A stretch of 38,855 bases of DNA from Chthoniobacterales bacterium (GCA_014879575.1 JACSRU010000081.1:1-38855); one strand, 5' to 3'; positions 4,962-24,339 are shown, counted from the stretch's first letter. Notes: generated by a model from the letters alone, not told the origin. Numbers and translations: made by a program.

Positions 4962-5006
4962 ATAATGCCTCCAAAGGGCACTGTGTTACCATTACACCAC
5001 AGGGCA
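4933..5006 (-). tRNA. tRNA-Gln (anticodon TTG)
   Basis: The reverse strand folds into a 74-nt cloverleaf including an encoded CCA. The acceptor stem is TGCCCTG/CGGGGCA with one G-U pair, the D-stem GTGT/ACAC, the anticodon stem GTGCC/GGCAT with loop CTTTGGA, and the T-stem CATGG/CCATG with loop TTCGAGT. The anticodon occupies 4972-4974. The CCA end (4933-4935) and the acceptor and part of the T-arm lie inside the 3' end of the convergent metallophosphoesterase gene. Confidence 0.93.
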
Positions 5007-6411: not shown

Positions 6412-6423
6412 AGAAACAAATGC

Positions 6424-6451
6424 TTGCCCGAAATTCTGGCGACAGTATTCT
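6424..6451 (+). promoter_or_regulatory. Possible sigma70-type promoter of tRNA-Phe
   Basis: TTGCCC (6424-6429) and TATTCT (6446-6451) are separated by 16 bp and end 18 bp before the mature tRNA 5' end. Each hexamer matches 4 of 6 consensus positions, so this is only a plausible candidate. Confidence 0.35.
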
Positions 6452-6469
6452 CCCCTCCTCACCGCTTAC

Positions 6470-6545
6470 GGCTGGGTAGCTCAGTTGGCAGAGCAGAGGA
6501 CTGAAAATCCTCGTGTCGGGGGTTCGATTCCCTCTCCAGCCACCA
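6470..6545 (+). tRNA. tRNA-Phe (anticodon GAA), island integration target
   Basis: A 76-nt cloverleaf with encoded CCA: acceptor GGCTGGG/TCCAGCC with a G7-U66 wobble, D-stem GCTC/GAGC, anticodon stem GAGGA/TCCTC with loop CTGAAAA (anticodon at 6503-6505), T-stem GGGGG/CCCTC and discriminator A. Its 3' half, from the anticodon stem on, recurs at 24340-24387, which makes it the left attachment site of the island. The distal copy has C where this gene has T at 6535; the distal version would restore a G7-C66 pair, so the present gene is a host/element hybrid that remains functional in appearance. Confidence 0.97.
6496..6543 (+). repeat. attL: tRNA-Phe 3'-half direct repeat
   Basis: Thirty-nine identical bases (6496-6534), one mismatch at 6535, then eight more identical bases, compared with 24340-24387. 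It starts in the anticodon stem and extends past the discriminator base. This is the core crossover region expected for a tRNA-targeting tyrosine integrase. Confidence 0.88.
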
Positions 6546-6550
6546 CTTTC

Positions 6551-6600
6551 AAAAGCTCGCAGAGTCGCTTGAATAAAGCCTCTACGAGCTTTTTGAGTTT
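6551..6600 (+). terminator. Probable intrinsic terminator of tRNA-Phe
   Basis: AAAAGCTCG (6551-6559) pairs with CGAGCTTTT (6585-6593); four further pairs AGAG/CTCT lie inside after one mismatch, with a 15-nt loop. A T-rich tail (to 6600) follows. It lies just inside the island, so the element supplies the terminator for the reconstituted tRNA gene. Confidence 0.5.
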
Positions 6601-6651
6601 TGGGAGCATTCCGACAGGAAACGTATGGAAACGACGGGAAGTGATCTAAAT

Positions 6652-6671
6652 TTATACGCCACTTCTACGCC
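6652..6671 (+). repeat. Left copy of end-proximal 20-bp repeat (possible integrase arm site)
   Basis: Starts TTATACGCCA and ends ACGCC. It matches 24295-24314 at 17 of 20 positions in the same orientation. The two copies lie about 110 bp and 26 bp inside the respective att repeats, positions expected for arm-type integrase or excisionase sites. Confidence 0.4.
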
Positions 6672-6683
6672 GGAAAGCGGGGT

Positions 6684-7823
6684 TCACAGCCTCATTCGTA
6701 TTCCAGCACGCTGTTGCTGTCGCTGCTGTTCGATTTCGAGGGCTCGGATAACAATTCGTAGGGTTCGCAGGAGCCCGATAAGGAGTTGACCTCCCCGGAA
6801 GTGATGGCCTTGAGCAATTCGTCCGATTGAAGCTCCTCGGGCAAGGAGACCAACCAGCTCTCCTGCCGTGTTCGGACGTGCAGGCCGTGTCCAGGAACGA
6901 TTTCGAGCATGTCGATTTCCGTGATGGGCAACGCCCGGTTTTCCAGACACAGCCACCCGGTGGGTCTGGCGTTTGGGTTTGGATTGATGCAACTGGCGTG
7001 TTCCTGCCAGATCGGGCTTCTCCCCGGAGCGGATTTGCGGTTGAGCGGACTGTTTGCGGGACTTGCGATCATGGTTCTTGAGTTTGTTGAGTTGGAAGTT
7101 GATTTCCGCCAAACGGCGGGAGTCGGAGGAAATGAGCTGGTTGATTTCGTCCTTGCGGAGTCGGCAACCATTCCGGGTCATAGCGGAGGCTTTTGCACCA
7201 AGGTGCTTGGTGGCGGGGCGGTCAATGCCCTGGGCTTGGAGCGAACGGCGGTTGACCCCTTCCGATACTCCAGCTTTCCGCAGAGCACGGTTACAGCGGG
7301 TTTCCCACATCTCGCGGATTCGCTCAATTTCGAGGGGGCCGAGTTTCCGGTCGTCGAGGTTGCGGATTTTCGCTTTCGAGAAATTTCCCTCGGCATCCAC
7401 GGCGCGGGTCGTCATGAAAATATGTCCGTGGACATTGCGCTGGTCGCCCTTCGTGTTCGGGTGGTGCAGGCTTACGCACAGGGCAACTCCGTAGGTGTCG
7501 CGCAGTTGCAACCCGAATCCGCGCATAAGCTCCCATTGCGCCTTCGTATTCAACTCGTGCGGCACGGCAACATCCATCGCCCGACCCACGCGGGCATCCC
7601 AACGCTTTTCGGCCTGTTCCACTCGCGCCGCCAGTTCGTCGGGCTGCATGGGCGGGCCGATGATCTGCCAGTCGATGACATCGGCTTTGTGCTTGGACCA
7701 ATCGTGCTTCTCGCCAGTGCGCTCGTTGGTCAATTTGCTGCGGGTGTCGTAGGCGATCTGCGCGACGGCGCTGTGGCCTTTGGCACGGCTGATCGGGCGG
7801 ATGGACAGGTGGAAAATCGCCAT
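6684..7823 (-). CDS. mobA: MobA/MobL-family (MOBQ) relaxase, as sequenced
   Basis: DNA relaxase that nicks oriT and pilots the transferred strand. The N-terminal catalytic domain (about 1-200) is intact: MAIFHLSIRPISR opening, AQIAYDTRSK with candidate nucleophile Tyr25, and the metal-binding His triad H121 plus H132-G-H134 in the segment NVHGHIFMTTR. The basic, glutamine-rich tail after about residue 255 looks like out-of-frame translation, whereas a frame one base downstream reads as a sensible acidic C-terminus ending at 6692. The gene therefore probably carries a frameshift near 7000-7060, or a sequencing error. The relaxase domain alone may still work. It lies downstream of the TraD-like gene on the same strand, with the candidate oriT between them. 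Confidence 0.8.
   Translation of the reverse strand: MAIFHLSIRPISRAKGHSAVAQIAYDTRSKLTNERTGEKHDWSKHKADVIDWQIIGPPMQPDELAARVEQAEKRWDARVGRAMDVAVPHELNTKAQWELMRGFGLQLRDTYGVALCVSLHHPNTKGDQRNVHGHIFMTTRAVDAEGNFSKAKIRNLDDRKLGPLEIERIREMWETRCNRALRKAGVSEGVNRRSLQAQGIDRPATKHLGAKASAMTRNGCRLRKDEINQLISSDSRRLAEINFQLNKLKNHDRKSRKQSAQPQIRSGEKPDLAGTRQLHQSKPKRQTHRVAVSGKPGVAHHGNRHARNRSWTRPARPNTAGELVGLLARGASIGRIAQGHHFRGGQLLIGLLRTLRIVIRALEIEQQRQQQRAGIRMRL
6692..7060 (-). other. Likely true C-terminal coding segment of the relaxase in the shifted frame
   Basis: In the frame +1 relative to the relaxase start, the sequence is open and reads like real protein: WLCLENRALPITEID, then EIVPGHGLHVRTRQESWLV, then an acidic tail ending SVLEYE. 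The upstream limit is approximate because the two frames overlap openly; the shift may be at the G run near 7023-7026. Not an independent gene. Confidence 0.5.
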
Positions 7824-7870
7824 GTCAGCAACCGGGATGTTGGGCTTGTAGGAAAGAAAAACCGGTGTCC

Positions 7871-7970
7871 GGCACGCGGTAGCGTGCCCTCCCCGCCAAC
7901 GGCGGGGCGCACTCGCGTCGCGGGGTTCTCCCCGCGATGCGTAAGTGCGCTTCGGCTTTCAGGGAAAGCC
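7871..7970. repeat. Cluster of four perfect-stem hairpins
   Basis: Within 100 bp: GGCACGC/GCGTGCC with loop GGTA (7871-7888), CCCCGCC/GGCGGGG with loop AAC (7891-7907), TCGCGGGG/CCCCGCGA with loop TTCT (7918-7937) and GGCTTTC/GAAAGCC with loop AGG (7954-7970). No T-run follows on either strand. The cluster fills the spacer between the relaxase and TraD-like genes and includes the candidate oriT. Confidence 0.7.
7907..7950 (+). other. oriT: Candidate origin of transfer (oriT), RSF1010/R1162-like
   Basis: The TCGCGGGG/CCCCGCGA hairpin (7918-7937) is followed by TGCG and then TAAGTGCGC (7942-7950). In RSF1010/R1162, whose MobA is the MOBQ prototype, oriT is an inverted repeat followed directly by TAAGTGCG with the nick after the last G. 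By analogy the nick would fall between 7949 and 7950 on the plus strand. The whole segment can also form a longer stem, GCGCACT (7907-7913) with AGTGCGC (7944-7950). The relaxase gene starts 84 bp away. The match is by eye and by memory of the RSF1010 core. Confidence 0.55.
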
Positions 7971-8008
7971 TCCGGTGGCTCGGAAGTCTCGTGCGCATGG
8001 ATGGCCGG

Positions 8009-8290
8009 TTACTGGTGTGGAGCTGCCACTGTGGGCGCTTCCTTCGCGGCCTGGGGAAACACGGAGCGCAAAAGGTCGGCGTCCTGCGGCGATGCCCCGG
8101 TGATGAGCCGTGGCAAAAGCGGCTGGTGATCCCGGAGGATCAACGCGCCAATGATGATCTTGGCGCGAGTGAGCTTTTTTCGCTCGGCGGTCTGGGCGGA
8201 ACGCTTGAGCCTGCGGATACGATCCTCAAGCTGCCGCCGCTCGGCTTCCAGCCGCTCGATTTTCTGTTGGGGAGATATGGTGATTTTCAT
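8009..8290 (-). CDS. TraD/MobC-like mobilisation accessory protein
   Basis: A 93-residue protein: an N-terminal coiled coil (residues about 7-35, KIERLEAERRQLEDRIRRLK), a basic segment ERKKLTRAKIIIGALIL, and a proline/alanine-rich end. The RKxxTRxKIxxGAL pattern resembles the small TraD-type conjugal proteins found beside MobA/TraA relaxases, which probably help load the relaxase at oriT. The start at 8290 was chosen because the coding character begins there; in-frame sequence upstream to 8473 is low-complexity and unlike protein. It lies upstream of and co-directional with the relaxase, across the 185-bp oriT candidate region. Confidence 0.68.
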   Translation of the reverse strand: MKITISPQQKIERLEAERRQLEDRIRRLKRSAQTAERKKLTRAKIIIGALILRDHQPLLPRLITGASPQDADLLRSVFPQAAKEAPTVAAPHQ

Positions 8291-8494
8291 AGGTGGGTTT
8301 AGCGAGGTTGGGAAAACGAGGGAGAGACGAAGGCGGATGCCCGGTCGCAGGCCAGACAGGCGGGAGCGCACCACCGCAACGACAACGGGCACTAACGACA
8401 GACGCTTCTTTTTTCCTACAAGCCGAAGAAAGACGACGTGACTTTCCCCAAAACGCCCTTTCCCGGCAGTCATTCCGCTTCCCGGTAAAAATTC

Positions 8495-8782
8495 TCATCG
8501 CGCCACCCCGCTTTCCGCTGGCTTACGTTCACTGGGCATCAGCGGCGGCAACTCCCCTTCAATCAGTCGCACATAGGCCGATTCCACCGATTCCGTGGCG
8601 ACAAGAAGATCCCGCCCTTCCCGGATAATGAGAAACCATTTCCCCTCCGCGTGCCGCGTGGCCCAAAGCATCCGGTCCACGAGTTTGGCCGAGCCGAGCA
8701 CGGCGATGATCTGCTTTTTCGTCAACGCCAGCGGACGCATTCCGTCAATGGAAACTCGCTGGTGGGAACGTGCTGTTTTCAT
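8495..8782 (-). CDS. Small HTH-like DNA-binding protein (possible excisionase or regulator)
   Basis: A 95-residue protein not assigned to a named family. Residues about 18-40 (LTKKQIIAVLGSAKLVDRML) look like a helix-turn-helix, followed by W-F-L-I-I-REGRDLLV, which reads like the strand pair of a winged helix. Such small proteins are common in integrative elements as excisionases or mobilisation regulators. It is the first gene of the minus-strand mobilisation group, 204 bp upstream of the TraD-like gene. Start at 8782 chosen because the upstream in-frame sequence lacks protein-like character. Confidence 0.6.
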   Translation of the reverse strand: MKTARSHQRVSIDGMRPLALTKKQIIAVLGSAKLVDRMLWATRHAEGKWFLIIREGRDLLVATESVESAYVRLIEGELPPLMPSERKPAESGVAR

Positions 8783-9176
8783 TTCTGCTCTCCGGTTAGG
8801 CCCAGCGTGGCGGCAGTCGATTGGGCGCTGGGGTGAAAAATTCTGATCGCATTGGTCGTTCTGATTTCCTGCGACAATGGCGCGTTTCGACACGAGCACC
8901 TGCTCCCGTTTGGGTGCAACTTTTTGCCTCCCAGCCAAAAACGAGCTTCTGTGGATCGAAGTTTCCATCTCATGCAGAAACAGATAACTCCTTGCAACTG
9001 GCGAGGTGCCCCGAATTTGGGGCAAAATTCCGGCTGTTTCTGCGATGGGCAATATATCATCCGACCTACGCTAGAGCCGGATTCCGGGCAGGCAGTTCCC
9101 GACTCGGAACAACCTGAGATGACCCACTCGCAAGATCGCGCCGACGCTCTCACGTCCGCACCGTCGCCCGGATTTC
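8783..9176. other. Intergenic region with nested inverted repeats; no convincing gene
   Basis: About 390 bp between the HTH-like gene and the Fic terminator. Open frames here are cysteine/serine-rich and do not look coding. It contains nested inverted repeats: outer arms GCAGAAACAG (8974-8983) and CTGTTTCTGC (9034-9043), inner arms TGCCCC (9007-9012) and GGGGCA (9019-9024). It probably holds the promoter of the mobilisation genes; the structure could be an RNA, an operator or an origin-like element. Confidence 0.5.
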
Positions 9177-9207
9177 AAAAAAGATTGCTCGTCCGATGAG
9201 CAATCTT
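9177..9207 (-). terminator. Intrinsic terminator of the Fic gene
   Basis: On the minus strand, a perfect 10-bp stem AAGATTGCTC/GAGCAATCTT with a 7-nt loop (9181-9207), running into a T-run (complement of 9177-9182). It starts 7 bp after the Fic stop codon. Confidence 0.85.
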
Positions 9208-9214
9208 CGAAGAA

Positions 9215-10369
9215 TCAGACAGCCTCTTCGGCATTCAGAATTTCCATATACCGATCGTATGCGAACACATGTGTTTTCCCTCGGCTGGGCAATTCCCGCA
9301 GAATGCCAAGCTTCACAAGCTGCCTGGCCGACGCGTGCAAAGTCGGAATGGAAATCGGCAGACTCTTATGCGCCTCCCGGACAGAACTGACCGGATGCGC
9401 CTGAAAAAAGCGATGCACTTCGAGAGCGGAAGGAGCCGCGCGGCCGATACCGCTGATTCGCTCCCGGTCTTCCTTGAAAACTTCGAGAAGGCGAGTGGCC
9501 GTTTGAAAAGCCTGATTTCCCGTTACCGCCACTCCTTCAAAGAAAAATGCCAGCCACGCCTCCCAATCTCCTTTTTCCCGGATTTGATTGAGCAGGTCGT
9601 AATAGAGGTCGCGATGGCGTTTGAAAAACAAGCTCAGGTAAAGGAGCGGTTGACGGAGCATTCCATCCGCGCAGAGCAGCAAGGTAATGAGCAAGCGCCC
9701 AACGCGGCCATTTCCGTCCAGAAATGGATGGATGGTTTCGAACTGGACATGGGCCATGCCCGCTTTCAATAAGGTGGTGATTGCCTCGTCGTGCAGGAAT
9801 TTTTCCAGCCGGTCGAGACAGGGCATCACTTCCTCAGCCGGAGGCGGGACGAATCGGGCGTTGCCGGGACGGGTGCCGCCAATCCAATTCTGACTCGTCC
9901 GAAATTCGCCGGGCTGCTTCCGGCTGCCGCGGCCTTTGGAGAGCAGGATTTCATGGAGTTCACGAATCAGCCGCAATGAGATCGGAAATCCCTCGCGGAG
10001 GCGATTCATTCCATGCTCCAGCGCCGCCACGTAGTTGGAGACTTCCTGCACGTCATTGATGGGAACTCCCGGCGCTTCATCGTTCTCGAACAAGAGGAGA
10101 TCGGAAAGGGAGGATTGCGTGCCTTCGATCTGCGAGGAAAGGACTGCTTCCTTGCGGACATAGCTGTAGAGAAAGACACTGGTCTCGGGTAAAATCGTGG
10201 CGATACCATCCAGACGCCCCAGGGCGGAACTGGCTGCGGCAAACTGCGTTTCCAGTTCGGACGACCACACCAGTGACGGCACTGGCGGAAGCGGTTTCGG
10301 CACGAACGCGCGAGCTTTCTCGCCCACCGTGGAAATGGGGAGATATTGTCCTTGAATGCCCCGTTTCAT
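9215..10369 (-). CDS. fic: Fic-domain protein (class II, auto-inhibited AMP transferase)
   Basis: Fic enzymes transfer AMP or other phosphate-containing groups to target proteins. The 384-residue protein has the complete catalytic motif HPFLDGNGRVGR (214-225, His214 catalytic) and an N-terminal inhibitory motif S-S-Q-I-E-G (78-83) whose Glu blocks ATP binding in class II Fic proteins. So it is self-regulated and needs no separate antitoxin gene. An N-terminal Fic_N-like domain (about 20-105) and a C-terminal winged-helix-like domain (about 300-375) match the common three-part architecture. It is a single-gene transcript: its own terminator lies downstream and a palindromic operator candidate 44-71 bp upstream. 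It is divergent from the defence operon, as expected for island cargo or a guardian module. Confidence 0.93.
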   Translation of the reverse strand: MKRGIQGQYLPISTVGEKARAFVPKPLPPVPSLVWSSELETQFAAASSALGRLDGIATILPETSVFLYSYVRKEAVLSSQIEGTQSSLSDLLLFENDEAPGVPINDVQEVSNYVAALEHGMNRLREGFPISLRLIRELHEILLSKGRGSRKQPGEFRTSQNWIGGTRPGNARFVPPPAEEVMPCLDRLEKFLHDEAITTLLKAGMAHVQFETIHPFLDGNGRVGRLLITLLLCADGMLRQPLLYLSLFFKRHRDLYYDLLNQIREKGDWEAWLAFFFEGVAVTGNQAFQTATRLLEVFKEDRERISGIGRAAPSALEVHRFFQAHPVSSVREAHKSLPISIPTLHASARQLVKLGILRELPSRGKTHVFAYDRYMEILNAEEAV

Positions 10370-10412
10370 GGGGACAAATCTACAGGACCATCTTTAACAA
10401 CGCCAGCCTTTC

Positions 10413-10440
10413 CGTTAAAAATAATGCGTTATTCTTAACG
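10413..10440. promoter_or_regulatory. 28-bp palindrome, probable operator between Fic and defence operon
   Basis: Arms CGTTAAAAATAA (10413-10424) and TTATTCTTAACG (10429-10440) pair at 11 of 12 positions around TGCG. The site lies in the 204-bp divergent region, close to the Fic start. The A+T-rich dyad contrasts with the surrounding G+C-rich DNA and is typical of a dimeric repressor site; the Fic C-terminal winged helix is one candidate ligand. Confidence 0.5.
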
Positions 10441-10543
10441 ATGATTGGCTCTATGTGAAAGGTAAATCATCGAGAAGGACTTCCGAGGCTACCGTGATGA
10501 TCGCTCTTAATGCTTGTAATCAACCCGATGATTCCATCGAATC

Positions 10544-10572
10544 TCAGGCTTTCCGAAGCCTGATTTTCTTGG
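10544..10572 (+). promoter_or_regulatory. Terminator-like hairpin directly before the defence operon start
   Basis: TCAGGCTT (10544-10551) and AAGCCTGA (10556-10563) form a perfect 8-bp stem with a TCCG tetraloop, followed by TTTTCTTGG and the ATG at 10574. Either an attenuator in the operon leader, a terminator protecting against read-through, or a hairpin that occludes initiation. No Shine-Dalgarno precedes the ATG. Confidence 0.5.
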
Positions 10573-10573
10573 T

Positions 10574-13500
10574 ATGCAAACTGCTGTGAATCAAGCAGGC
10601 GACCTATTTATTGTCGATAACTCGGACTCGGAGTGGCGAGTCCGTTCCTATCTGCTTGAATGGTGCGACCTATCCCGTGCAATCGACATTGCCACCGGAT
10701 ATTTCGAAATAGGTGCACTTCTTGCGCTCGGCGACAAGTGGCAGTCTGTTGAAAAAATCCGCATCCTCATGGGTGATGAGGTTTCCATGCGGACCAAACG
10801 CGCCTTTGCCGATGGACTGAAAAGGATCAATGGTCGTCTGGATGACAGCGTGGAATCTGAAAAGACCAAAAACGATTTCCTTCAAGATGTTCCGGCGATT
10901 GTTGAGGCCATTCGGTCGGGGAAAATCGAATGCCGCGTTTATCGCCGCGACAAATTTCATGCCAAGGCATACCTCACGCACGGAAAGGCTGCCGTCGTTG
11001 GTTCGTTTGGGTTGGTCGGCTCCTCCAACTTTACCTTTCCGGGCCTCTCGGACAATGTGGAACTCAACGTCCAGATTCGTGGCAACGATGTCCGGCTGCT
11101 TCAGGAATGGTATGACCGGCATTGGAACGACGCGGAGGACATCACGCCGGATATTCTCCGCACGCTGGAACGGCACACCGATCCGCGCACTCCGTTCGAG
11201 ATTTATTTCAAATCTCTTTACGAATTCTTTCGCGGCGAGGCTCTGACTCCCGACCTCTGGGACAGTCGGCACTCGAAGCTGTTTCCCATTCTCGACAAGT
11301 ATCAACAGGACGCTTACCGCAACCTGCTCGCTATCGCTTCCCGATACGGTGGGGCCTTCCTCTGCGACGGCGTGGGCTTGGGCAAGACCTTTGCGGGCCT
11401 CATGCTGCTGGAACGTCTTGTCGCCAGGGAAGGAAAGCGCGTCGTGCTTTTCGCACCGAAGGCGGCGCGGGAAGACGTGTGGGAACCCGCCATCGCCCGC
11501 TACCTGCCTGACTTGAACAGCGGATTCGTCAATTTCGTTCTCCGCAACCATACCGATCTTCAACGAAAAGGAAAATTCCAGCGCGACCTTCAACTCACTC
11601 TGAAAGATGCGGATGTCGTCATCATTGACGAGGCCCACCATTTCCGCAATCCCGGCATCAAAGGTGAAGGGCTTCGCGAGCCATCGCGTTACCGGCGATT
11701 ACAGGATGCGTTGCATTCGAGCGACCGGAAGAAACAGTTGTTTTTCCTTACCGCCACTCCGGTGAACAATTCGGTTCACGATTTCCGACACATCATCGAA
11801 CTCTTTACGAACGGAGCCGAACAGTATTTCGCATCCAACCTCGGCATTCATAGTGTCCGTGCCCACTTCATTGCGCTGGAGCGTCAGATTCTTGGGAAAG
11901 TCCCAAAAGCTCAGGCTGACTTGGAATTCGGTTCGGAAATTCTTGAGGCGGAGCAAACCCTTCGTTCGGACTCTATTTTTGACGCGCTGGTCGTTCAGCG
12001 CAGCCGGGCCTACGTGAAGCGCAGCCAGCAACAGCAAGGTTCCAGCGCGGCTTTATTCCCTGAACGGTCAGCCCCCCAAGTCGTCGCCTATAACTTGAAG
12101 GCCACTTATGGCCGGTTACTTCAAAGTGTCGAAAAGGCTTTCAACAAACAACAACCTCTCTTCGTCCTGAGCATTTATTTTCCTCTGGCTTATTGGAAAG
12201 GCGACAAGGACAGCCCGGACTACCAAAAATGGGATGAGGGCCGTCAAAAGCAGGTCGTAACGTTGATTCGCACGCTCTTTTTGAAGCGGTTTGAAAGCTC
12301 GTCAAAAGCCTTCCAAGGTTCCTGTTGGCGACTGCTTCAGAAGATTCTGGCATGGGTAACGGTGCATACCGAGAGCGAGCACGATCAGGCCCGTTTGAAT
12401 CGTTGGAAACAAAAACATGGCGACTTGATCGGATATGTTCACAACCATCAACGGGAGCTTTGGCCGGAGGAGGCGGAAGAAGACGAGGCGGAGGAGTTTT
12501 TAGGCGAGGACATTCTGAATCAGGTCAAAAAACTGGATCGGGAAGAATTCGATGTGGATGCCATCCTCGATGATTGTTTCGAGGATTTGAACCAGCTCGC
12601 GGAATTCCTTGCGCTTCTCTCCGAAGTCAAGCCAGAACGTGACGACAAGCTCAAGGCACTTATCAAGCTGCTAAAGACGGACAAGGTTCTAAAAAACGAG
12701 AAAGTTCTCCTTTTCACCGAGTTCGCCGACACGGCGCGCTACCTTCAGCATGAATTAGAGGCGGCGGGCATTGCGGGCGTTCACCGCATTGATGGCGGGA
12801 GTTCGCAAAGGCAGCGGAGCGAGGTCATTCGCCGATTCGCTCCTTATTATAATAATACGACTCCGGCGGAAATTGCCGGGGAAGGCTTGGAGCCGATTCG
12901 CGTCCTGGTCAGCACGGACGTGCTTTCGGAAGGTCTGAACCTTCAGGACGCCACCCGTTTGATCAATTACGATCTCCATTGGAATCCCGTTCGGCTCATG
13001 CAACGCATCGGCCGCGTGGATCGCCGGATGAATCCGGAGATCGAAACGCGCATCATTGCCGATGATCCACGGCAGCAGAAGGTGCGCGGTAAAGTGGAAT
13101 TCTGGAATTTTCTTCCCCCGGAGGAATTGGACGAACTGCTTCGTCTGTTCCAGCGGGTCGCGGGCAAAACGCTCGTCATTTCCCGCACCCTTGGCATCGA
13201 GGGGAGAAAGCTCCTCACGCCGGATGACAATTTTGATCCCGTCAAGGAACTGAACGAGCAATGCGACGGCACGCTGAGCGACACCGAGCAGCTTCGCCTG
13301 GAATATGACGAGTTAGTCAAGGCGCACCCGGAACTAGCGAAGTCTTTACCCGATCTGCCGTTGAAGGTGTTTACCGGCAAGGCATCCCCGCCGCCCGACG
13401 TGAAAGCGGTCTTTTTCTGCCATCGCATTCCCCGGCCCGATCCCAATCTCATTGACGCGGAGTCCGGCGAACCTCGCTGGTCCGACTCCGCCGGACTTAC

Positions 13501-13732
13501 CGTCTGGACTTGCTGCGATCTGGAAACAAAAAAAGTGGCCGTGTCGCCCGGCGGCATTGCCGCCCTGATTCGTTCCATTCCGCAAACCCCGCGTCACTGC
13601 GCGCTAGATCGTGCCGCGCTCTCCGAACTTCGCAAGAAAGTCGAAAAACAACTCGTCGCCGACCATCTGCGCCCCTTGCAGGCCCCTGCGGGCGTTAGTC
13701 CGGTGCTCAAGTGCTGGATGGAGCTAAATTGA
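10574..13732 (+). CDS. PLD-nuclease/SNF2-type helicase fusion (defence)
   Basis: A 1052-residue protein with an N-terminal phospholipase-D-type domain (about 30-190; H129-x-K131 and GSSNFTFPGL form the HKD-like site) fused to a superfamily 2 Snf2/RapA-like motor. Helicase motifs: DGVGLGKT (265-272), DEAH (352-355), TATP (393-396), STDVLSEGLN near 780 and QRIGRVDR near 810. A helicase with a PLD domain is the expected translocase-nuclease of a restriction system. It is the first gene of a six-gene co-directional cluster, with 9 bp to the next gene. Together with the type-ISP-like methylase two genes on, it looks like the motor and nuclease half of a split ISP enzyme, with PLD replacing the usual Mrr nuclease. 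One HKD motif implies that it dimerises to cut. Confidence 0.92.
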   Translation: MQTAVNQAGDLFIVDNSDSEWRVRSYLLEWCDLSRAIDIATGYFEIGALLALGDKWQSVEKIRILMGDEVSMRTKRAFADGLKRINGRLDDSVESEKTKNDFLQDVPAIVEAIRSGKIECRVYRRDKFHAKAYLTHGKAAVVGSFGLVGSSNFTFPGLSDNVELNVQIRGNDVRLLQEWYDRHWNDAEDITPDILRTLERHTDPRTPFEIYFKSLYEFFRGEALTPDLWDSRHSKLFPILDKYQQDAYRNLLAIASRYGGAFLCDGVGLGKTFAGLMLLERLVAREGKRVVLFAPKAAREDVWEPAIARYLPDLNSGFVNFVLRNHTDLQRKGKFQRDLQLTLKDADVVIIDEAHHFRNPGIKGEGLREPSRYRRLQDALHSSDRKKQLFFLTATPVNNSVHDFRHIIELFTNGAEQYFASNLGIHSVRAHFIALERQILGKVPKAQADLEFGSEILEAEQTLRSDSIFDALVVQRSRAYVKRSQQQQGSSAALFPERSAPQVVAYNLKATYGRLLQSVEKAFNKQQPLFVLSIYFPLAYWKGDKDSPDYQKWDEGRQKQVVTLIRTLFLKRFESSSKAFQGSCWRLLQKILAWVTVHTESEHDQARLNRWKQKHGDLIGYVHNHQRELWPEEAEEDEAEEFLGEDILNQVKKLDREEFDVDAILDDCFEDLNQLAEFLALLSEVKPERDDKLKALIKLLKTDKVLKNEKVLLFTEFADTARYLQHELEAAGIAGVHRIDGGSSQRQRSEVIRRFAPYYNNTTPAEIAGEGLEPIRVLVSTDVLSEGLNLQDATRLINYDLHWNPVRLMQRIGRVDRRMNPEIETRIIADDPRQQKVRGKVEFWNFLPPEELDELLRLFQRVAGKTLVISRTLGIEGRKLLTPDDNFDPVKELNEQCDGTLSDTEQLRLEYDELVKAHPELAKSLPDLPLKVFTGKASPPPDVKAVFFCHRIPRPDPNLIDAESGEPRWSDSAGLTVWTCCDLETKKVAVSPGGIAALIRSIPQTPRHCALDRAALSELRKKVEKQLVADHLRPLQAPAGVSPVLKCWMELN

Positions 13733-13741
13733 TTCGCCGCG

Positions 13742-14305
13742 ATGGCCTACCGATCTAAACAAACGAAAAAAGAAAAACTGGAGGATTTAGCGGTTTATGA
13801 TCTTCCCGCTCCTTTGCAGGCCAAACTGGAAGTTGTTCGTCAGGCAATCAATTCCCTAAAAGCTGAGGCCGCAGATTGGGGAGTGAATCGTGAGTTTAGT
13901 CCCGACGGTCGTTTCCTTGGTGATGTCGGAGAACTTATTGCGAAACTATTCTTCGGAGTCGCGTTAAACGTGAAGCAACAAAAGGGCCACGACGCAATTG
14001 ATGCAGAGGCAGACGCAGAAGCAACCATCGCCGGTCGCACAGTAGAGGTGAAATTACGATCTCGAAGCACGAATATCCATTTCAGCGATATTCCAGATAT
14101 TGCCTTGGTCATTTACGTCTCGCCAGATCGTCTCAAATGGGGAGTGGTTTGCAATGGTCCTGGAGAAACCCTTTTAGCGAATGCGAAGCAACTACCCGAT
14201 GGAAAGATGAGCACGGACTGTCACAAGCTGCTCGAACGGCAGAAGCAAGTTCAATCTTCCGATCCGCAGTTGCGTCATTCATTGCCAGTCAAACCCGCCA
14301 ACTAA
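13742..14305 (+). CDS. Small PD-(D/E)XK-like nuclease-fold protein
   Basis: A 187-residue protein that I cannot place in a named family with certainty. The central region has the order of a PD-(D/E)XK active site: Glu64 in GDVGELIAKLFF, Asp84/Asp87 in GHDAID, and E102-V-K104 in TVEVKLRS, followed by a strand rich in hydrophobics (DIALVIYV). This resembles DUF6998-type restriction-associated proteins. It lies between the helicase (9 bp) and the methyltransferase (7 bp), so it is probably a third subunit of the same system, either the nuclease or a substrate-recognition factor. The N-terminus is basic (SKQTKKEKLE). Confidence 0.7.
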   Translation: MAYRSKQTKKEKLEDLAVYDLPAPLQAKLEVVRQAINSLKAEAADWGVNREFSPDGRFLGDVGELIAKLFFGVALNVKQQKGHDAIDAEADAEATIAGRTVEVKLRSRSTNIHFSDIPDIALVIYVSPDRLKWGVVCNGPGETLLANAKQLPDGKMSTDCHKLLERQKQVQSSDPQLRHSLPVKPAN

Positions 14306-14312
14306 CCTTTCC

Positions 14313-17300
14313 ATGCCCTCAGACCTTCGCTCCATCCGCACTTTCGATCAGCTTATCCGCTACCTCGGCGATGAACTCGACTGGCCCGTCGAGGACTACG
14401 AACTCGACGAACTCGCCTTCGACTACGACCCCGCCGATCTGGGCCTGAAGGACGAGGACGCCGCCGCCATCAAGCCCCCTATCCGCCAGCTTCGCCCGTT
14501 GCCCGGAGGCCAGCCGTGGGGAGTCTTCTTTGTCGAGTTTGAAAAGAAGCGCCTCCCCATCGTGGTTCTTCGCCGCATTCTTTCGCATCTCGTCGTGAAA
14601 AAACGGGAAGCCGCGAACAAAGGCGGCAACAAGCGGTGGAATGCCCAGGACCTTCTGTTCATTTCCGCCTTCGGCGATGAAGGCAGCATTGACCGGGAAA
14701 TCGCCTTCGCCCACTTCCATCAGGAATCCGGCGATCTCCCCACGCTTCGCGTCCTCGGCTGGGACGGGGGCAATACCGCGCTGACCCTTGCCGGAGTAGC
14801 ACACACGCTCCGCGAAAAACTCCACTGGCCGGAGAAGGGCGAACCCGCCGACAAATGGCGCGAACGCTGGAGCAGCGCCTTCCGCCATCGGATCGGACAT
14901 CGCGTTCGCACCGCCGACAATCTCGCTGAGGTTCTCGCGTCGCTTGCCCGTGGCATTCGCGACCGCTGCCGTGCGATGCTCGCCGCCGAGAGCGAGCGCG
15001 GCCAGCTTACTAAACTCTTCAAGGCATTTCAGACTGCACTCATCCACGATCTCACCCCGGAGACTTTCGCCGACACCTACGCGCAGACCATCACCTATGG
15101 CCTCCTCACCGCTGCCATTTCCCGCACGGAAATGAGCGAAGGCGCGCGCGGCACCGCCCTTATCGCCGAAAACGTCGCGGACATCGTTCCCGTCACCAAT
15201 CCCTTCCTCAAGGAAATGCTACAAACCTTCCTCAAGGTCGGCGGGCGAAAGGGCGGCATTGATTTCGACGAACTCGGCATTCAGGACGTGGTGGAACTCC
15301 TTCGCGGCGAGGAAACCGATCTTCCTGCCGTCATCAAAGATTTCGGCCACAAAAACCCCGAAAAAGATCCCGTCATTCACTTCTACGAGCATTTCCTCTC
15401 CGCCTATGATCACGCGCAAAAGGTGAAGCGCGGCGTCTTCTACACCCCGCCCGCCGTCGTTTCCTACATCGTGCGCAGCGTCCATGAACTCCTCCAGACC
15501 GAGTTTGGCCTCGAAGACGGTCTTGCCTCCACCGTCACCTGGGGTGAAATGCAAAGCCGCATCCCCGGCCTCGCGCTGCCCAAGGTGCGCGTGCGCAAAG
15601 CCGGTGATTCGCTCGGACAGGAAGTGGATATTCCTGCCGACACACCCTTTGTCCAAATCCTCGATCCTGCCACCGGCACCGCCACCTTTCTCGTCGAAGT
15701 CATTGACCTTATTCATCGAACCCTGGCCGCGAAATGGAAAAAGGAAGGCCGCAACGACGCTCAGCGGCGGGCCGCGTGGAATGAATACGTGCCGAAGCAC
15801 CTGCTCCCGCGCCTTCACGGCTACGAACTGATGATGGCGCCCTACGCCATCGCCCATATGAAAATCGGGCTGAAGCTCTACGAAACCGGCTACCGCTTCG
15901 GTACCGAGGAACGCGCCCGCGTCTATCTTACTAACGCACTCGAGCCGGCACACGAAGTTTCTGACCAACTTGAATCGCTTGCCCCGGCTCTTGCGCATGA
16001 GGCCAAGGAAGTGAACGCCATTAAGAGCAGTCAGCGTTTCACTATCGTCATCGGCAATCCGCCGTATTCAAAAATATCGTCTAACCTGACCCCTGAAATG
16101 CGAGCCACGGTCGAAAGGTATCGGTATCTTGATGGCATCAAAATTAAAGAGCGTGGTGCGCTCCAATTCGAGATTAATCTCCAAGACGACTACGTGAAAT
16201 TTTTCCGTCTGTGTGAAGAACGGGTGGCTGCATCGAATGTCGGAATACTTGGACTTATCACAAACAATGGTTATCTCAGCACGCCTACTCTTCGCGGAAT
16301 GCGCGATTCGTTACTTGAGACGTTTAAGTCAATATGGGTCGTTGACCTTCACGGGCACTTGGCAAAGGGAGAAACTGGCGCGACAGATGAACAAGAAGAA
16401 AATGTCTTCGACATTGTCCAGGGCGTATCGTTGTTTTTAGCCCATCGTATACTTCCTAAAACGGAAGATGCTGTAGTATTTCACGCAGAGCAGTATGGCG
16501 CACGGCGGAGTAAATACGCATTCCTGCAATCAAACACTCGTTCGTCAACGAATTGTATAAAGATTAGCCCATCCCCTGCTTTTTATCTCTTCATCCCGCA
16601 TAGTTCGGACTTAGCACAGGAATGGAAAGAATTCATCGGCCTTTCTGACATATTTCCGAAGAATAGCGCGGGGATTATTACGGCGCGTGATGGCCTTGTA
16701 ATTTCAGAGGATTCCGAAGGATTAGCTGACCGTCTTCAACGATTTAGTCGAGCCACCGAGGCGGATGCTTCGATATACGAACAGTTCAATTTCTCCGAGA
16801 GCAAACGCTTCGATTTGCGGGACGCCCAAGAGGATCTGCGTAAACTAAAGTCTTTCACTGAGCCGATTCGTCGGATGCTTCACCGCCCGTTCGATGCTCG
16901 TTTCGTTTTCTTTCATCCGAGCGTTGTCTGGAGCCTTTCGCGGCCAATGGCAGATTTGATGAAAGACGGAAAGAATTTAGCGTTGATTGCTACGCGTCAA
17001 GTGACGCGTGCTCAGTTCGAGCACGCCTTTGTCTCGCGGAACATCATCGAAATCAAAGCGTGCTCACACGACCGGAATACTCAGATATTCCCCCTCTTCC
17101 TCCGAATCTCGGATGGAGAACTTGCCCTGTCTAGGGGGGCCGCCGCAAATCTGAATTCGGCATTCTTTGCAAGCACCGCGAAGTCTCTTGGGCTGAAAGC
17201 GAACATGGCTACATATGAACTCGGCCACGATAAAGAACTCACGCCTGCTCGTTTATTTAATTACGCCTACGCAATCCTTTATTGCCCAAGCTACCGTGAG

Positions 17301-17819
17301 AGATATTTCGAGTTCTTGCGGAGCGATTTCCCGCGCCTGCCGCTGCCGGGAAACATCGAGCTTTTCCGCGCACTGGCCGCGCTCGGTGGCGAACTCGTCG
17401 CGCTTCACCTGCTCGAATCGCCCAAGCTCGCCAAGCCCATCACGCGCTTTTACGGCAGCGACCGCCAGCTCGTGCGCATCGGCGAGAAGGGAAAGAAACT
17501 TCTCGCCGTAAAGAACGGTGTGGGCCGTGTGCCAATCAACGCCACCAGCGGCTTCGAGGGGGTGTCGCCGGCCGTGTGGGACTTCCACATCGGCGGCTAC
17601 CAAGTCTGCCACAAATGGCTCGACGACCGCCGCAAAGCTGGACGTTCACTTTCCGACGACGACATCGCCCACTATCACAAAGTCGTTGTCGCCCTCTCCG
17701 AAACCATCCGCCTCATGGCCGAAGTAGATGCCGCCATCGAACAACACGGCGGCTGGCCGGGGGCGTTCGCCGGAGAGAAGGCAGAAAACCTCAATCCCGA
17801 AGCGGCTTCAGTGAAATGA
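14313..17819 (+). CDS. Type-ISP-like N6-adenine DNA methyltransferase with specificity region
   Basis: A 1168-residue modification and specificity subunit. Residues 1-365 form a helical N-terminal region; GVFYTP (374-379) opens the methylase, DPATGTATF (451-459) is the SAM-binding motif I, LHGYELMMAPYAIAHMKIGL is the signature block of single-chain type ISP enzymes, and NPPY (582-585) is the catalytic motif IV. The C-terminal part is the presumed target-recognition domain. Unlike LlaGI/LlaBIII, it has no Mrr or helicase part; those functions would come from the gene two upstream. The sequence composition shifts sharply just after NPPY: about 16060-17310 is visibly richer in A+T than either flank, suggesting that the specificity region was exchanged. 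It ends 10 bp before the SEFIR gene. Confidence 0.9.
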   Translation: MPSDLRSIRTFDQLIRYLGDELDWPVEDYELDELAFDYDPADLGLKDEDAAAIKPPIRQLRPLPGGQPWGVFFVEFEKKRLPIVVLRRILSHLVVKKREAANKGGNKRWNAQDLLFISAFGDEGSIDREIAFAHFHQESGDLPTLRVLGWDGGNTALTLAGVAHTLREKLHWPEKGEPADKWRERWSSAFRHRIGHRVRTADNLAEVLASLARGIRDRCRAMLAAESERGQLTKLFKAFQTALIHDLTPETFADTYAQTITYGLLTAAISRTEMSEGARGTALIAENVADIVPVTNPFLKEMLQTFLKVGGRKGGIDFDELGIQDVVELLRGEETDLPAVIKDFGHKNPEKDPVIHFYEHFLSAYDHAQKVKRGVFYTPPAVVSYIVRSVHELLQTEFGLEDGLASTVTWGEMQSRIPGLALPKVRVRKAGDSLGQEVDIPADTPFVQILDPATGTATFLVEVIDLIHRTLAAKWKKEGRNDAQRRAAWNEYVPKHLLPRLHGYELMMAPYAIAHMKIGLKLYETGYRFGTEERARVYLTNALEPAHEVSDQLESLAPALAHEAKEVNAIKSSQRFTIVIGNPPYSKISSNLTPEMRATVERYRYLDGIKIKERGALQFEINLQDDYVKFFRLCEERVAASNVGILGLITNNGYLSTPTLRGMRDSLLETFKSIWVVDLHGHLAKGETGATDEQEENVFDIVQGVSLFLAHRILPKTEDAVVFHAEQYGARRSKYAFLQSNTRSSTNCIKISPSPAFYLFIPHSSDLAQEWKEFIGLSDIFPKNSAGIITARDGLVISEDSEGLADRLQRFSRATEADASIYEQFNFSESKRFDLRDAQEDLRKLKSFTEPIRRMLHRPFDARFVFFHPSVVWSLSRPMADLMKDGKNLALIATRQVTRAQFEHAFVSRNIIEIKACSHDRNTQIFPLFLRISDGELALSRGAAANLNSAFFASTAKSLGLKANMATYELGHDKELTPARLFNYAYAILYCPSYRERYFEFLRSDFPRLPLPGNIELFRALAALGGELVALHLLESPKLAKPITRFYGSDRQLVRIGEKGKKLLAVKNGVGRVPINATSGFEGVSPAVWDFHIGGYQVCHKWLDDRRKAGRSLSDDDIAHYHKVVVALSETIRLMAEVDAAIEQHGGWPGAFAGEKAENLNPEAASVK

Positions 17820-17829
17820 ACTCCATGTC

Positions 17830-19305
17830 ATGACCAATGGGGACACAGCGGAGGCGACTGCAAAGGTATTCATTAGCTATACCCAAGAGTCCGACGAGCA
17901 CAGCCACCACGCCCTAGCTTTGTCAAACGCACTACGCGGGTTGGGTTTTGAGAGCGACATAGATCAATACCATGTCAACGAGCGTTGGCCGTCCTGGATG
18001 GAAGGACGGCTTGAATGGGCAGATTTTGTCCTGGTGATCTGCACCGAAACCTACCTCCGCAGATGGAAGAACGACGAAAAGGACGGGGTCGGCCTCGGAG
18101 CGCAGTGGGAAAGCCTTCTGACGAGGCAATACCTTTATGAATCCCCCCAGCGAAACGACAAATTCATTCCTGTTGTTTTCGAGAGCGCCGATCTGAAATT
18201 CATTCCCAAACCGCTGGCGGATGTGACTCGCGTGGTCGTTGGGCCGCAGTTGGAATTCCTCGACCGCCTTCGATCTCGTCTCCTGGGAATTCCTCCGGCT
18301 GAAATGCCGCCCATCCGAACGTCACTGGCTCCCATCGCCGTCGCGGAGGGCTTCTTTCAAAAATCATCACTCATCGGTGAAAATCAGTTTGATCCTCAGG
18401 ACATTGGACTTCACCACGAGCCGGAGAGCATCGCTTCCAATCTTTTTCCTGTCGTGTTTCCCGAGACGATTTACTCCGCCAAAATTGGTGTGAAGCGAGG
18501 CTCGAAAACGGAATTTTTCAGCCGCGTCAAAAAGGCTTGGGAAAAACTGGGAAATTCAGGAAAGCCGCCATCCGATTTCTTCGTGGATTATGGCATCGTT
18601 TATACTTTTCAAAACTTTGAGCAACCGCTCTGGAAGGAGCTTTTTGCCAACAAGACATTGATTAACCCCGGTCATTTCAAAGCCTCCAAATGGGCGGAGT
18701 CGGCAGTCATGGGCGACAGGAGCAAATTTATCAAGCTGCTGAACCGTTGTTTGCAGCATCTTTGCGAGCACAACAGCACGCCGTATCAGATGGCATACTC
18801 CAAGAAAATGAAGTGCCATTTATTTGCCGTCAAAGCAGGAACACGGGAAGGCACCTTGAAAGCTCTGGCGCTCAAGACATTCGGAGATAGGACGATTTAC
18901 AAAGCAATTCCCGATAAGAAATCGGACGATCCGAATGCAATTCAACACTGGAAGCATGAGGCGTTCCGGCACAAGTTCATGCGCTTCGGTCAAAAGTGGT
19001 ATTTTATATTGGTTCCATTCTGGGCTTTCACCTGCGACGGCGTAAACAGCCCGAGCAAATGGCAAAAGAAGTCGAGTTCCAACATGCGCAAACCGGAGAA
19101 GAATCGCGCCGTCCTGGGGCATGTTTTATTCTGGGCCAGCGTCTTGTGCCGGGAGCCTGATCTAATCGAGTCTGGAGAGGGATTTCGGATTCAAAGGCCA
19201 ATAGGGCTTTCTCTGTCTCCATCCATCAAGGACGCGGATTGGGTGAAGCTCGCAAAGTCTGACGAGCAGAAGGAAATGACCGCTGATATGGGGGTATTGC
19301 TGTGA
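17830..19305 (+). CDS. SEFIR-APAZ protein, effector partner of short Argonaute
   Basis: A 491-residue protein. Residues about 12-150 form a SEFIR (TIR-related) domain: KVFISYTQES, GLGFESDIDQY, W-P-S-W-M and ADFVLVICTETYLRR. The rest (about 200-485) has the position, size and context of an APAZ domain, which stands in for the missing N/PAZ parts of short Argonautes and docks on them. By analogy with TIR-APAZ/pAgo (SPARTA), guide-directed target recognition would trigger the SEFIR domain, possibly an NAD-consuming activity, causing abortive infection; this is inferred. The APAZ call rests mainly on the next gene, whose start overlaps this stop by 4 nt (GTGA), so the two are translationally coupled. 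SEFIR-APAZ versions are known from surveys of short pAgos. Confidence 0.85.
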   Translation: MTNGDTAEATAKVFISYTQESDEHSHHALALSNALRGLGFESDIDQYHVNERWPSWMEGRLEWADFVLVICTETYLRRWKNDEKDGVGLGAQWESLLTRQYLYESPQRNDKFIPVVFESADLKFIPKPLADVTRVVVGPQLEFLDRLRSRLLGIPPAEMPPIRTSLAPIAVAEGFFQKSSLIGENQFDPQDIGLHHEPESIASNLFPVVFPETIYSAKIGVKRGSKTEFFSRVKKAWEKLGNSGKPPSDFFVDYGIVYTFQNFEQPLWKELFANKTLINPGHFKASKWAESAVMGDRSKFIKLLNRCLQHLCEHNSTPYQMAYSKKMKCHLFAVKAGTREGTLKALALKTFGDRTIYKAIPDKKSDDPNAIQHWKHEAFRHKFMRFGQKWYFILVPFWAFTCDGVNSPSKWQKKSSSNMRKPEKNRAVLGHVLFWASVLCREPDLIESGEGFRIQRPIGLSLSPSIKDADWVKLAKSDEQKEMTADMGVLL

Positions 19306-20720
19306 TCAAGCTGGATAAAATCATCGGCGAACCGCTCTTGGAATTCGGCAGTGGCGGCCAGTCTTTCGATATACGGGAGGGAATCACGCGATATGGTCCC
19401 GTGGACGTAGCAACTCCACGCGCAAAAACGGAAGTTAAAATTGGGCTGGTAGGAACCGCGAAAAGCATTGAGGCATTTTCGGCGTGGATGCGGACTTGCG
19501 CCAATGGCATCAAGGGAGACAATCCGCTGAATCCAAATTTGAACCCGGATTTTCCGGGGTTGGCTCCGTCAGTCGGTTTTCGCGCCAAATTTGAAACTCA
19601 TGAAAGTTGGGTATCCGAGCTTTCAGAGCGGGAGTTGAAGGAGCTTTGTGAAAAGGATGGCGCTGTCAGCCTTCTGGCCGAGCTATTCCACGACAAAATC
19701 CGCTCACTTTTTGAACTGAGCGCGAGCAAGCCGGATGTCGTGATTTGCCTGCCTCCCGATATAGTGAGGAAGAGGGTAAAACCTCGGGCCTACGAAAACG
19801 AGGAGTTTGACGACCTCGACGACAGCGAGAAAGGCGTTGATTTTCACGATTATCTCAAGGGGCGTTGCCTTGTTTCCCGCTCCCTTTTCCAACTCGTGTG
19901 GCCTCGCACATACGGTGAGAGTGCGCGAGAAGTCCAAGACCCAGCCACTCGGGCATGGAATCTTTTTGGAGGTTTATTTTACAAAGCAGGCGGCATTCCT
20001 TGGAAGCTGCTTCGTCCGCCTTCCGGGAAAAGAACCTGCTATGTCGGCATCTCTTTCTCGGTGCGTGAGGAGGGCGGCTATATGCACTCAAGCCTTACCC
20101 AAGTTTTCAACGACAAAGGCGAAGGGACAATTCTCCGTGGAGGCATGGCGCATAAGTCAGAGGAAGATCACGAGGTGCATCTCTCGAAGGAGGCAGCGGA
20201 AAAGCTACTGGCTGACGCGATTCAAAACTACAAAAAGGCGAATGACGATCACCTGCCGGATCGCGTGGTGGTTCACAAGTCATCGGGATACGACCGGGCA
20301 GAATTGGACGGCTTCAACAAGGCAGCGGATGCTGTGGGCGTGAAATTCTGCGATCTTGTGGCGCTGAATCGTTCCGACATCCGGTTTTTCCGGCATGGAT
20401 CGTATCCGCCCCTGCGTGGCTCGCATATCCTTTTGGATGAGATGAATTCCGTTCTCTACACGCGGGGGAGTGTTCCATTTTACCGCAAGTATCCCGGCCC
20501 CTACGTGCCGCGCCCGCTTCATGTGCGCTATTTTCAAACCGAGCGAAGCCAAACGGAATTGGCGCTGGAAATTCTGGCGTTGACGAAATTGAACTGGAAC
20601 AAGACGCAATTTGATTCCCTCTATCCGATTACACTCGGTGGTTCGAGACGGATTGGAGAAATTTACAAATGGTGTCACGATCCTCCTTCTGATCCACTGA
20701 GTTACGCATTTTTTATGTAG
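19302..20720 (+). CDS. Short prokaryotic Argonaute (MID-PIWI, catalytically inactive)
   Basis: A 472-residue protein with only MID (about 90-240) and PIWI (about 240-472) domains, the layout of short pAgos. PIWI features: strand CYVGISF (246-252), in which Ser251 occupies the first catalytic Asp position; YDRAEL after VVVHKSSG; HGSYPPLRGSHIL; and a C-terminal hydrophobic end SYAFFM that normally reaches the guide 5' end pocket. The DEDX slicer residues are not evident, so it should bind a guide and target without cutting. GTG start at 19302, overlapping the SEFIR-APAZ stop by 4 nt. Recognition was from sequence patterns alone; the close neighbour makes the call strong. Confidence 0.9.
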   Translation: MIKLDKIIGEPLLEFGSGGQSFDIREGITRYGPVDVATPRAKTEVKIGLVGTAKSIEAFSAWMRTCANGIKGDNPLNPNLNPDFPGLAPSVGFRAKFETHESWVSELSERELKELCEKDGAVSLLAELFHDKIRSLFELSASKPDVVICLPPDIVRKRVKPRAYENEEFDDLDDSEKGVDFHDYLKGRCLVSRSLFQLVWPRTYGESAREVQDPATRAWNLFGGLFYKAGGIPWKLLRPPSGKRTCYVGISFSVREEGGYMHSSLTQVFNDKGEGTILRGGMAHKSEEDHEVHLSKEAAEKLLADAIQNYKKANDDHLPDRVVVHKSSGYDRAELDGFNKAADAVGVKFCDLVALNRSDIRFFRHGSYPPLRGSHILLDEMNSVLYTRGSVPFYRKYPGPYVPRPLHVRYFQTERSQTELALEILALTKLNWNKTQFDSLYPITLGGSRRIGEIYKWCHDPPSDPLSYAFFM

Positions 20721-20730: not shown

Positions 20731-21630
20731 ATGGAGGCCGAACCGGAAAAAACATCGGACATTTGCCGCCTTTTCGTGGATGAGGCGGGCGTCCCGGAAA
20801 TCTTCGACAAGAAGGGGCGTGTGATCGTCGGAAATGAAGGGTGCTCTCATTACTTCATGCTCGGAATGCTCGAAGTGGATGATCCAGAGAAGCTGGCTCT
20901 CGCCCTGAACGGCTTGCGTGAGGAGATGCGGAATGACCCCTATTTCTCCTCATCAGAATCCTTCGATCCCGCACGGAAAAGGACGGCGCTGCTCTTTCAC
21001 GCCAAGGATGATCTGCCGGAGGTCAGGGTGAAAGTTTTCGACCTCCTTCGGTCTTTTGGTTCTGAAATCCGCTTCCGGGCGGTGATCTGCGACAAGCAAA
21101 TCATCCGGGCACGCGAGGAAGCGCGCCGCAGTCAGCAACCGGGGTATCGCTACAATCCCGATCATCTTTACGACGAACTGGCCCGTGCGTTGTTCTCGAA
21201 ATTCAGCCGGATGGCGGATGTTTACCAGCTCTGGATTGCCAAGCGGGGAAACAAGGAACGCAACGCGGCGCTGCTTCAGGCGATAGACGACGCGGAGGGG
21301 GATTTTGCCCGCAGTTTCGGGTTTTCACGCGGCGGGGTGGATCGGTGGAAAGCCACCATCACGAACCCGAGGGTCACGGTTTGTTTGCAGGCCACCGACT
21401 ATTTCCTCTGGGCGCTTCAGCGGTTCTATGAGCCGCGTGAGCATCCCACAACCAAGGAAGTGATCCATGAGGATCGCTACCTCAACGCGATTTGGCCTCA
21501 AGTCAGCCAGATTCACGATCTGCATTTCGGCCCGACACAGGGCAGTTTCTTCACCGTGGGGAACCCGCTGACCGTGGAAACTCGGTTCGGCCCGAAGAAG
21601 ACCCGGAAAAAGAAAATGCCGCAAGTATAG
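20731..21630 (+). CDS. DUF3800 protein (RNase H-like fold)
   Basis: A 299-residue DUF3800 protein, recognised by the N-terminal LFVDEAG (Asp17, Glu18), a following YFMLGML strand, LLFHAKDDLPEVR and a second acidic patch near ATDYFLWAL. The family has a predicted RNase H-like fold and may act as a metal-dependent nuclease; no function is established that I can cite. The C-terminus is very basic (PKKTRKKKMPQV), suiting nucleic-acid binding. It begins 10 bp after the pAgo stop and closes the six-gene cluster, so it may be a third component or guide processor of the Argonaute module. A run of seven T lies just upstream of the ATG and no Shine-Dalgarno is seen. Confidence 0.85.
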   Translation: MEAEPEKTSDICRLFVDEAGVPEIFDKKGRVIVGNEGCSHYFMLGMLEVDDPEKLALALNGLREEMRNDPYFSSSESFDPARKRTALLFHAKDDLPEVRVKVFDLLRSFGSEIRFRAVICDKQIIRAREEARRSQQPGYRYNPDHLYDELARALFSKFSRMADVYQLWIAKRGNKERNAALLQAIDDAEGDFARSFGFSRGGVDRWKATITNPRVTVCLQATDYFLWALQRFYEPREHPTTKEVIHEDRYLNAIWPQVSQIHDLHFGPTQGSFFTVGNPLTVETRFGPKKTRKKKMPQV

Positions 21631-22953: not shown

Positions 22954-22990
22954 AAGGAAGGCAACCGCATAAGGGTGGAAGGATTGTGAC

Positions 22991-24286: not shown

Positions 24287-24294
24287 GGCAAAGC

Positions 24295-24314: not shown

Positions 24315-24339
24315 AACGTCAATTTATACTGTAAAATCG

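Follow-up and report, generated by a model that had tools for sequence, protein, structure and literature searches.

A PLD–SNF2 motor gene linked to an adaptor-bearing N6-adenine methylase gene in a Chthoniobacterales bacterium: a probable two-subunit restriction-modification system with a candidate plug-in architecture

Introduction

It is believed that restriction enzymes evolve by trading nuclease, motor and specificity parts (compare the deconstruction of Type I enzymes by engineering; PMC6158711). Type ISP enzymes, such as LlaGI and LlaBIII, are single chains that comprise nuclease, motor, methylase and specificity functions, with an N-terminal nuclease domain of the Mrr-type PD-(D/E)XK kind. 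Type IIG/IIL enzymes, such as DrdV, also have a PD-(D/E)XK nuclease at the N terminus of the methylase chain, and have no helicase partner. The Type IV enzyme SauUSI (PLD-SF2-SRA) begins with a single-HKD PLD domain that is followed by an SF2 motor; it reads modified DNA through its own SRA domain, has no methylase partner and dimerises via its PLD domains (PMC7913695). In the CglI/NgoAVII-type systems (CglI: PMC5737866), the PLD nuclease bears a DNA-binding B3 domain, the SF2 ATPase is separate and cleavage is ATP-dependent. Finally, HKD/PLD nucleases, SNF2 helicases and methylases are found together in one operon in the Type-2 BR, PbeABCD (PMC10853773) and DISARM (PMC9142583) systems.

Here we describe a locus of a Chthoniobacterales bacterium (GCA_014879575.1, JACSRU010000081.1:1-38855), located at positions 10574-17819 of the 38,855-nt stretch of DNA that was analysed, which we call the window. 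It encodes a PLD-SNF2 protein, HEL, and, in a separate gene, a methylase-specificity protein, MT, whose N-terminal ~190 residues we term the adaptor. HEL and MT share with the Type ISP enzymes an N6-methylase core, a Type_ISP_C domain (232 bits) and an SF2 motor and would be expected to share an asymmetric site and ATP dependence. However, they are two chains, with a PLD domain in HEL in place of the Mrr-type nuclease and with the adaptor at the N terminus of MT. The methylase-specificity half of MT finds its best match in Type IIG/IIL enzymes (DrdV and relatives detected here, such as L053 and L078), but combines with an adaptor and a separate HEL, rather than with a nuclease in cis. HEL has the same N-terminal order of single-HKD PLD domain and SF2 motor as SauUSI, but recognition is placed in a separate methylase. 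The likeness to the CglI/NgoAVII-type systems extends to a PLD nuclease and an SF2 ATPase that would cooperate in ATP-dependent cleavage; here, in contrast, motor and PLD domain form one protein and the methylase provides specificity. Unlike the Type-2 BR, PbeABCD and DISARM systems, the locus has two core genes only and contains no DUF499, DUF3780, CxC ATPase/DndE, DrmA or DrmB. No description of the HEL-MT pair was found in a search of open-access literature.

Results

The genes for HEL (10574-13732) and MT (14313-17819) flank a DUF6998 gene (13742-14305). All three are open and intact on the plus strand, to which coordinates refer unless stated otherwise, with intergenic gaps of 9 and 7 bp, and they are located in a defence-rich region (Pfam, PADLOC). 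The original prediction, made from the DNA alone, had claimed such a trio of genes; the ORFs were confirmed at these coordinates and the domain assignments upheld by Pfam and motif inspection. Its two-gene division, with nuclease and motor in HEL and methylase and specificity in MT, also stands, as these are separate ORFs in the window and in relatives too. The core of the operon is the two-gene pair of HEL and MT, rather than the trio.

HEL, a protein of 1052 aa, combines a PLD nuclease domain with a SNF2-like SF2 motor (Pfam PLDc_2, SNF2-rel and Helicase_C). The PLD domain (residues 36-184; 10679-11125) scores 39.6 bits against PLDc_2 (cut-off 27) and contains a single HKD, with residues H129, K131, S150, N152 and E163 invariant in 42 of 42 HEL homologues. 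The motor core (residues 240-818; 11291-13027) harbors GVGLGKT at 266, DEAH at 352, LTATP at 392 and QRIGRVDR at 810. Within these, GxGK271T, H355 of the DEAH box, TATP and RIGRxDRR are again invariant in 42/42 homologues. Helicase_C matches at 76.8 bits and SNF2-rel/ResIII over cut-off, and PADLOC places HEL in its C3a139 HKD+Snf2 group (177.6 bits). A PDB search relates the motor to SNF2/RapA-type proteins and detects no similarity to LlaGI, LlaBIII or HsdR.

MT, of 1168 aa, joins the adaptor to an N6-adenine methylase and an ISP-type specificity domain, the latter being the Type_ISP_C target recognition domain at residues 779-1136 (16647-17720; PF18135, 232.2 bits). Eco57I and N6_Mtase also score over their Pfam cut-offs, and the methylase motifs D451PAxG and N582PPY are intact. 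The methylase half resembles LlaBIII (E 8.9e-24), LlaGI (E 1.7e-19) and DrdV (108 bits) in a PDB search, and the PADLOC match of MT is to REase_MTase_IIG (594 bits). The locus had been interpreted as an ISP enzyme split into parts. That interpretation fails on the motor: because the MT half is of the IIG/ISP kind but the motor of HEL is a different one, the pair does not appear to be a cut ISP enzyme. We regard "split ISP" as a fair analogy for a pair in which such an MT half seems to have been combined with another motor.

The adaptor domain of MT (residues 1-192; 14313-14888) is conserved only with HEL and belongs to no recognised family. Residues 1-190, which had been overlooked in the original prediction, are neither methylase nor specificity domain, and no nuclease domain was recognised in MT by Pfam or by residue conservation and profile comparison of its N terminus. 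An AlphaFold2 model of the adaptor is moderately confident (mean pLDDT 80.1) and yielded no Foldseek match at E 0.001 or better. Its best VIA-align match, to 3n2q (Z 6.3, rmsd 4.2 over 128), is not significant, and several cap-snatching and other nuclease-like chains align at Z ~4, which is compatible with, but not evidence for, a degenerate nuclease fold. A longer model, of MT residues 1-385, aligns with the connector region of DrdV over its residues 196-380 (Z 7.4, rmsd 4.1 over 150), which is below the firm level. The stretch WGVFFVEFEKK (residues 69-80) was considered as an ExK nuclease motif and rejected, because residue 75 varies, being a glutamic acid in 16 and a lysine in 11 of 30 homologues.

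With MT as the query, 80 loci were obtained from 84,980 species genomes; the relatives with the full protein come from many phyla and from one archaeal lineage. The relatives fall in two classes, those aligning from MT residue 1-40 (class A) and those aligning only from residue ~177-204 onward (class B). When only loci found by MT alone and with more than 2.5 kb of upstream sequence are counted, HEL lies directly upstream of MT in 43 of the 44 class A loci and in none of the 15 class B loci. The class A figure becomes 54/55 when later loci are included, some of which were found via HEL and one contig of which is counted twice. A single class A fragment, L058, lacks an upstream HEL. As an independent test of the linkage, separate searches for HEL, the adaptor and the MTase core were made across the window's phylum (289 genomes). 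Close HELs (at least 55% identity) occur in six of these genomes; the adaptor, though the count is small, was found in exactly these six, on the contigs that carry HEL, and in no others. The MTase core was found in 20 of the 289. Were MT a type IIG-like methylase that merely adjoins an independent PLD-SNF2 system in a defence island, the many stand-alone relatives of its core (class B) and the defence-rich surroundings would be expected. Such a chance association is very improbable, however, given a linkage of 43/44 over many phyla and a genome match of 6/6, and given that the nuclease which its stand-alone relatives have is missing from MT. In two loci, L003 and L006 (also recovered as L147), the methylase gene is split over more than one ORF by a frameshift or internal stop and HEL is open; decay, phase variation and assembly error are each possible.

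The same six genomes bear on the relation of the pair to larger defence systems. HEL falls in a broad HKD+Snf2/DrmD-like class, and Type-2 BR systems combine an HKD-Snf2 helicase with an N6-MTase, besides which they include DUF499 and DUF3780 (PMC12839542). Both points would suit a reduced BREX-related (Type-2 BR), DISARM or ARMADA locus with a BREX/DISARM-like, possibly non-cleaving, mechanism. We consider this unlikely, as a DUF499 gene is absent from the HEL contig in 6/6 genomes, the operon is without DrmA and DrmB, MT has no DrmMI match in PADLOC, and the score of HEL against NCBIfam DrmD, 152.5 bits, is far below the cut-off of 610. The invariant catalytic PLD residues also argue against such a reading, and DUF3780 has no Pfam match among the operon proteins. 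Two further loci contain a Type_ISP_C methylase of 1325-1372 aa, with a long N terminus unlike that of MT, and a SNF2 helicase with no PLD by Pfam. The helicase is 1507 aa long in L081 (4269-12760), and in L055 (2210-12829) it is 2159 aa long and fused to a second DEAD helicase.

Comparison of the two MT classes bears on the place that the adaptor occupies. The N terminus of class B proteins, before the shared connector, contains a conserved E..(x)PD..ExK, the signature of PD-(D/E)XK nucleases, and by PADLOC the class B proteins are single-chain type IIG enzymes (REase_MTase_IIG, 1018.8 bits for L053). The N-terminal domain of class A (~190 residues) has no conserved D..ExK set in the homologue alignment, and profile comparison found no homology between the N-terminal domains of the two classes. 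The class A adaptor occupies the place of the type IIG PD-(D/E)XK nuclease, with the PLD domain of HEL as the predicted nuclease of the pair. Its location where type IIG relatives keep their nuclease suggests that a separate motor-nuclease has taken over the nuclease function of the methylase chain. The proposal that a PLD domain replaces an Mrr nuclease is supported comparatively, as the closest helicase-less relatives of the methylase half carry PD-(D/E)XK at this position, but not with regard to descent from an ISP enzyme. Homologues with a fused Mrr domain had been named as evidence against the proposal; fused PD-(D/E)XK homologues do exist, in class B, but without a helicase, which fits the swap.

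Two of the six phylum genomes, L149 and L150, carry the adaptor on an unrelated methylase core. L149 combines a HEL of 55% identity to that of the window with an adaptor of 42% identity and an Eco57I core with TaqI_C. In L150 the corresponding identities are 70% and 36%, and the core is Eco57I with DUF7008. In the HEL tree both nest among ISP-type HELs, L149 as sister to L148 (support 1.0) and L150 inside the window's clade (support 1.0); in the adaptor tree, unlike their HELs, L149 and L150 group together. This disagreement between the trees suggests that the adaptor moves together with its methylase, not in strict co-evolution with HEL; in these two loci the modification gene was probably exchanged as a whole, with its adaptor. 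The name adaptor was chosen for residues 1-190 because the domain is constant while the methylase core varies. As HEL and the adaptor are used with at least three methylase cores, the motor would be a restriction module shared by specificity subunits that can be exchanged, with the adaptor plugging methylase-specificity subunits into the PLD-SNF2 restriction motor. That the adaptor physically docks on HEL we infer from their co-occurrence only.

The DUF6998 gene (13742-14305; PF22522, 77.4 bits, cut-off 27) encodes a PD-(D/E)XK-type protein of 187 aa that appears to be an optional accessory. E102 and K104, which the original prediction had correctly singled out, are invariant, along with D84, in three core members. 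A six-member profile matches restriction endonucleases of solved structure (Eco15I, E 6.7e-11; NhoI, E 1.3e-6), and a profile of the three core members matches more weakly (E 0.011), making a nuclease plausible. The tight gaps of 9 and 7 bp and the intact D84/E102/K104 signature would be consistent with a three-part HEL-DUF6998-MT machine in which DUF6998 serves constitutively as a second nuclease or as a sensor. DUF6998 also has some affinity for such loci, being located between a SNF2 helicase and a DrmMI-type methylase in L096, beside hsdM of a Type I system in L097 and near HKD+Snf2 in L098. Yet the other HEL-MT pairs examined include none with DUF6998, and a constitutive role for DUF6998 is improbable. 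In 44 of 57 pairs (with one contig entering the count twice) HEL and MT are at most 178 bp apart, which leaves the slot empty. In the remaining pairs it contains other cargo: DUF3800, AAA+subtilase, a 23S intervening-sequence protein, a transposase, Fic (in L041), toxin-antitoxin genes with SecB, a Schlafen AlbA_2 protein or a YhcG PDDEXK nuclease. In addition, the GC content of the DUF6998 gene, 0.486, stands against 0.546 in HEL and 0.562 in MT. The L096 locus is unrelated to HEL-MT and is an independent helicase-DUF6998-methylase arrangement; at 5220-13067 it has a DpdE/DrmD-like SNF2 helicase, DUF6998, a DrmMI-type methylase and an LmuB-like ATPase in one run, with a DruE-like helicase just upstream. 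DUF6998 relatives were found neither in viral contigs (three queries) nor on plasmids, and a diverse alignment of the family contained no sufficiently conserved segment. DUF6998 is a roaming defence accessory, inserted in the operon as optional cargo.

A second slot is located between MT and a DUF3800 gene (20731-21630; PF12686, 24.1 bits). In L002, L003 and L011, the order is HEL-MT-DUF3800, with nothing between MT and DUF3800. The window contains in this slot a SEFIR-APAZ protein (17830-19305; PF08357, 48.1 bits), with PADLOC Aga APAZ-type models matching its residues 196-486 at up to 167.6 bits, and its partner, a short prokaryotic Argonaute (MID-PIWI) whose ORF (19302-20720; PADLOC pAgo_I, 495.7 bits) overlaps the SEFIR-APAZ ORF by 4 bp. 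Together (17830-20720) they provide the MID-PIWI Argonaute and the APAZ protein with an effector domain by which short pAgo-APAZ modules are recognised, and the SEFIR-APAZ gene is the first of the module; SEFIR-APAZ proteins adjoining pAgo have been known since 2009 (PMC2743648). In L007 the slot contains a Septu-like AAA_21 ATPase with HNH, and L006 has an AAA ATPase there. The GC contents of the SEFIR and Argonaute genes (0.513 and 0.524) are below those of MT and DUF3800 (0.567 for the latter), which fits insertion. The SEFIR-APAZ/pAgo pair and DUF6998 thus appear as independent accessory defence modules inserted in the operon.

Several other features surround the operon. Divergent to HEL and directly upstream of it, a SoFic-like protein adenylyltransferase is encoded on the minus strand (9215-10369; PADLOC SoFic, 393.8 bits). 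On the other side, the minus strand at 21808-24397 contains a YhcG/DUF1016 PDDEXK nuclease gene and a borderline tyrosine-recombinase-like ORF. The window also has tRNA-Phe (6470-6545) and tRNA-Gln (4933-5006). With the recombinase-like ORF and the tRNAs, the region is possibly an integrated island.

Discussion

The gene content, the intact motifs, the linkage of HEL to MT, the swapped domain and the exchanged cores are all observed in these genomes, and we consider it likely that HEL and MT form a two-subunit ATP-dependent restriction-modification system, with adaptor docking, a shared motor and accessory cargo as proposed. MT would recognise an asymmetric site via Type_ISP_C and methylate adenine at that site in self DNA, and HEL would dock on the N-terminal ~190-residue adaptor of MT. 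Where the site is unmethylated, HEL would hydrolyse ATP and translocate along the DNA, and the PLD domains of two HEL molecules would together cut it. Methylation, translocation, cleavage and dimerisation are predicted here from the families to which the proteins belong. As each HEL PLD domain has one HKD, a dimer would be needed, and cleavage most likely proceeds via PLD dimerisation, by analogy with SauUSI.

We judge it somewhat more probable than otherwise that the family represents an undescribed plug-in architecture, in which a universal PLD-SNF2 motor and a ~190-residue adaptor serve several unrelated kinds of methylase, the adaptor supplanting the type IIG cis nuclease. The slots with Argonaute, Septu-like, Fic and nuclease genes illustrate how operons gather added layers of defence. 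The HEL-MT family itself seems to show both moves in the trading of parts occurring naturally, the replacement of a type IIG nuclease by an adaptor and the swapping of the methylase core behind a constant adaptor. If the plug-in reading is true, a new specificity could be recruited by fusion of the adaptor to another methylase and, if the adaptor indeed docks the motor, its fusion to other methylases could yield programmable ATP-dependent restriction.
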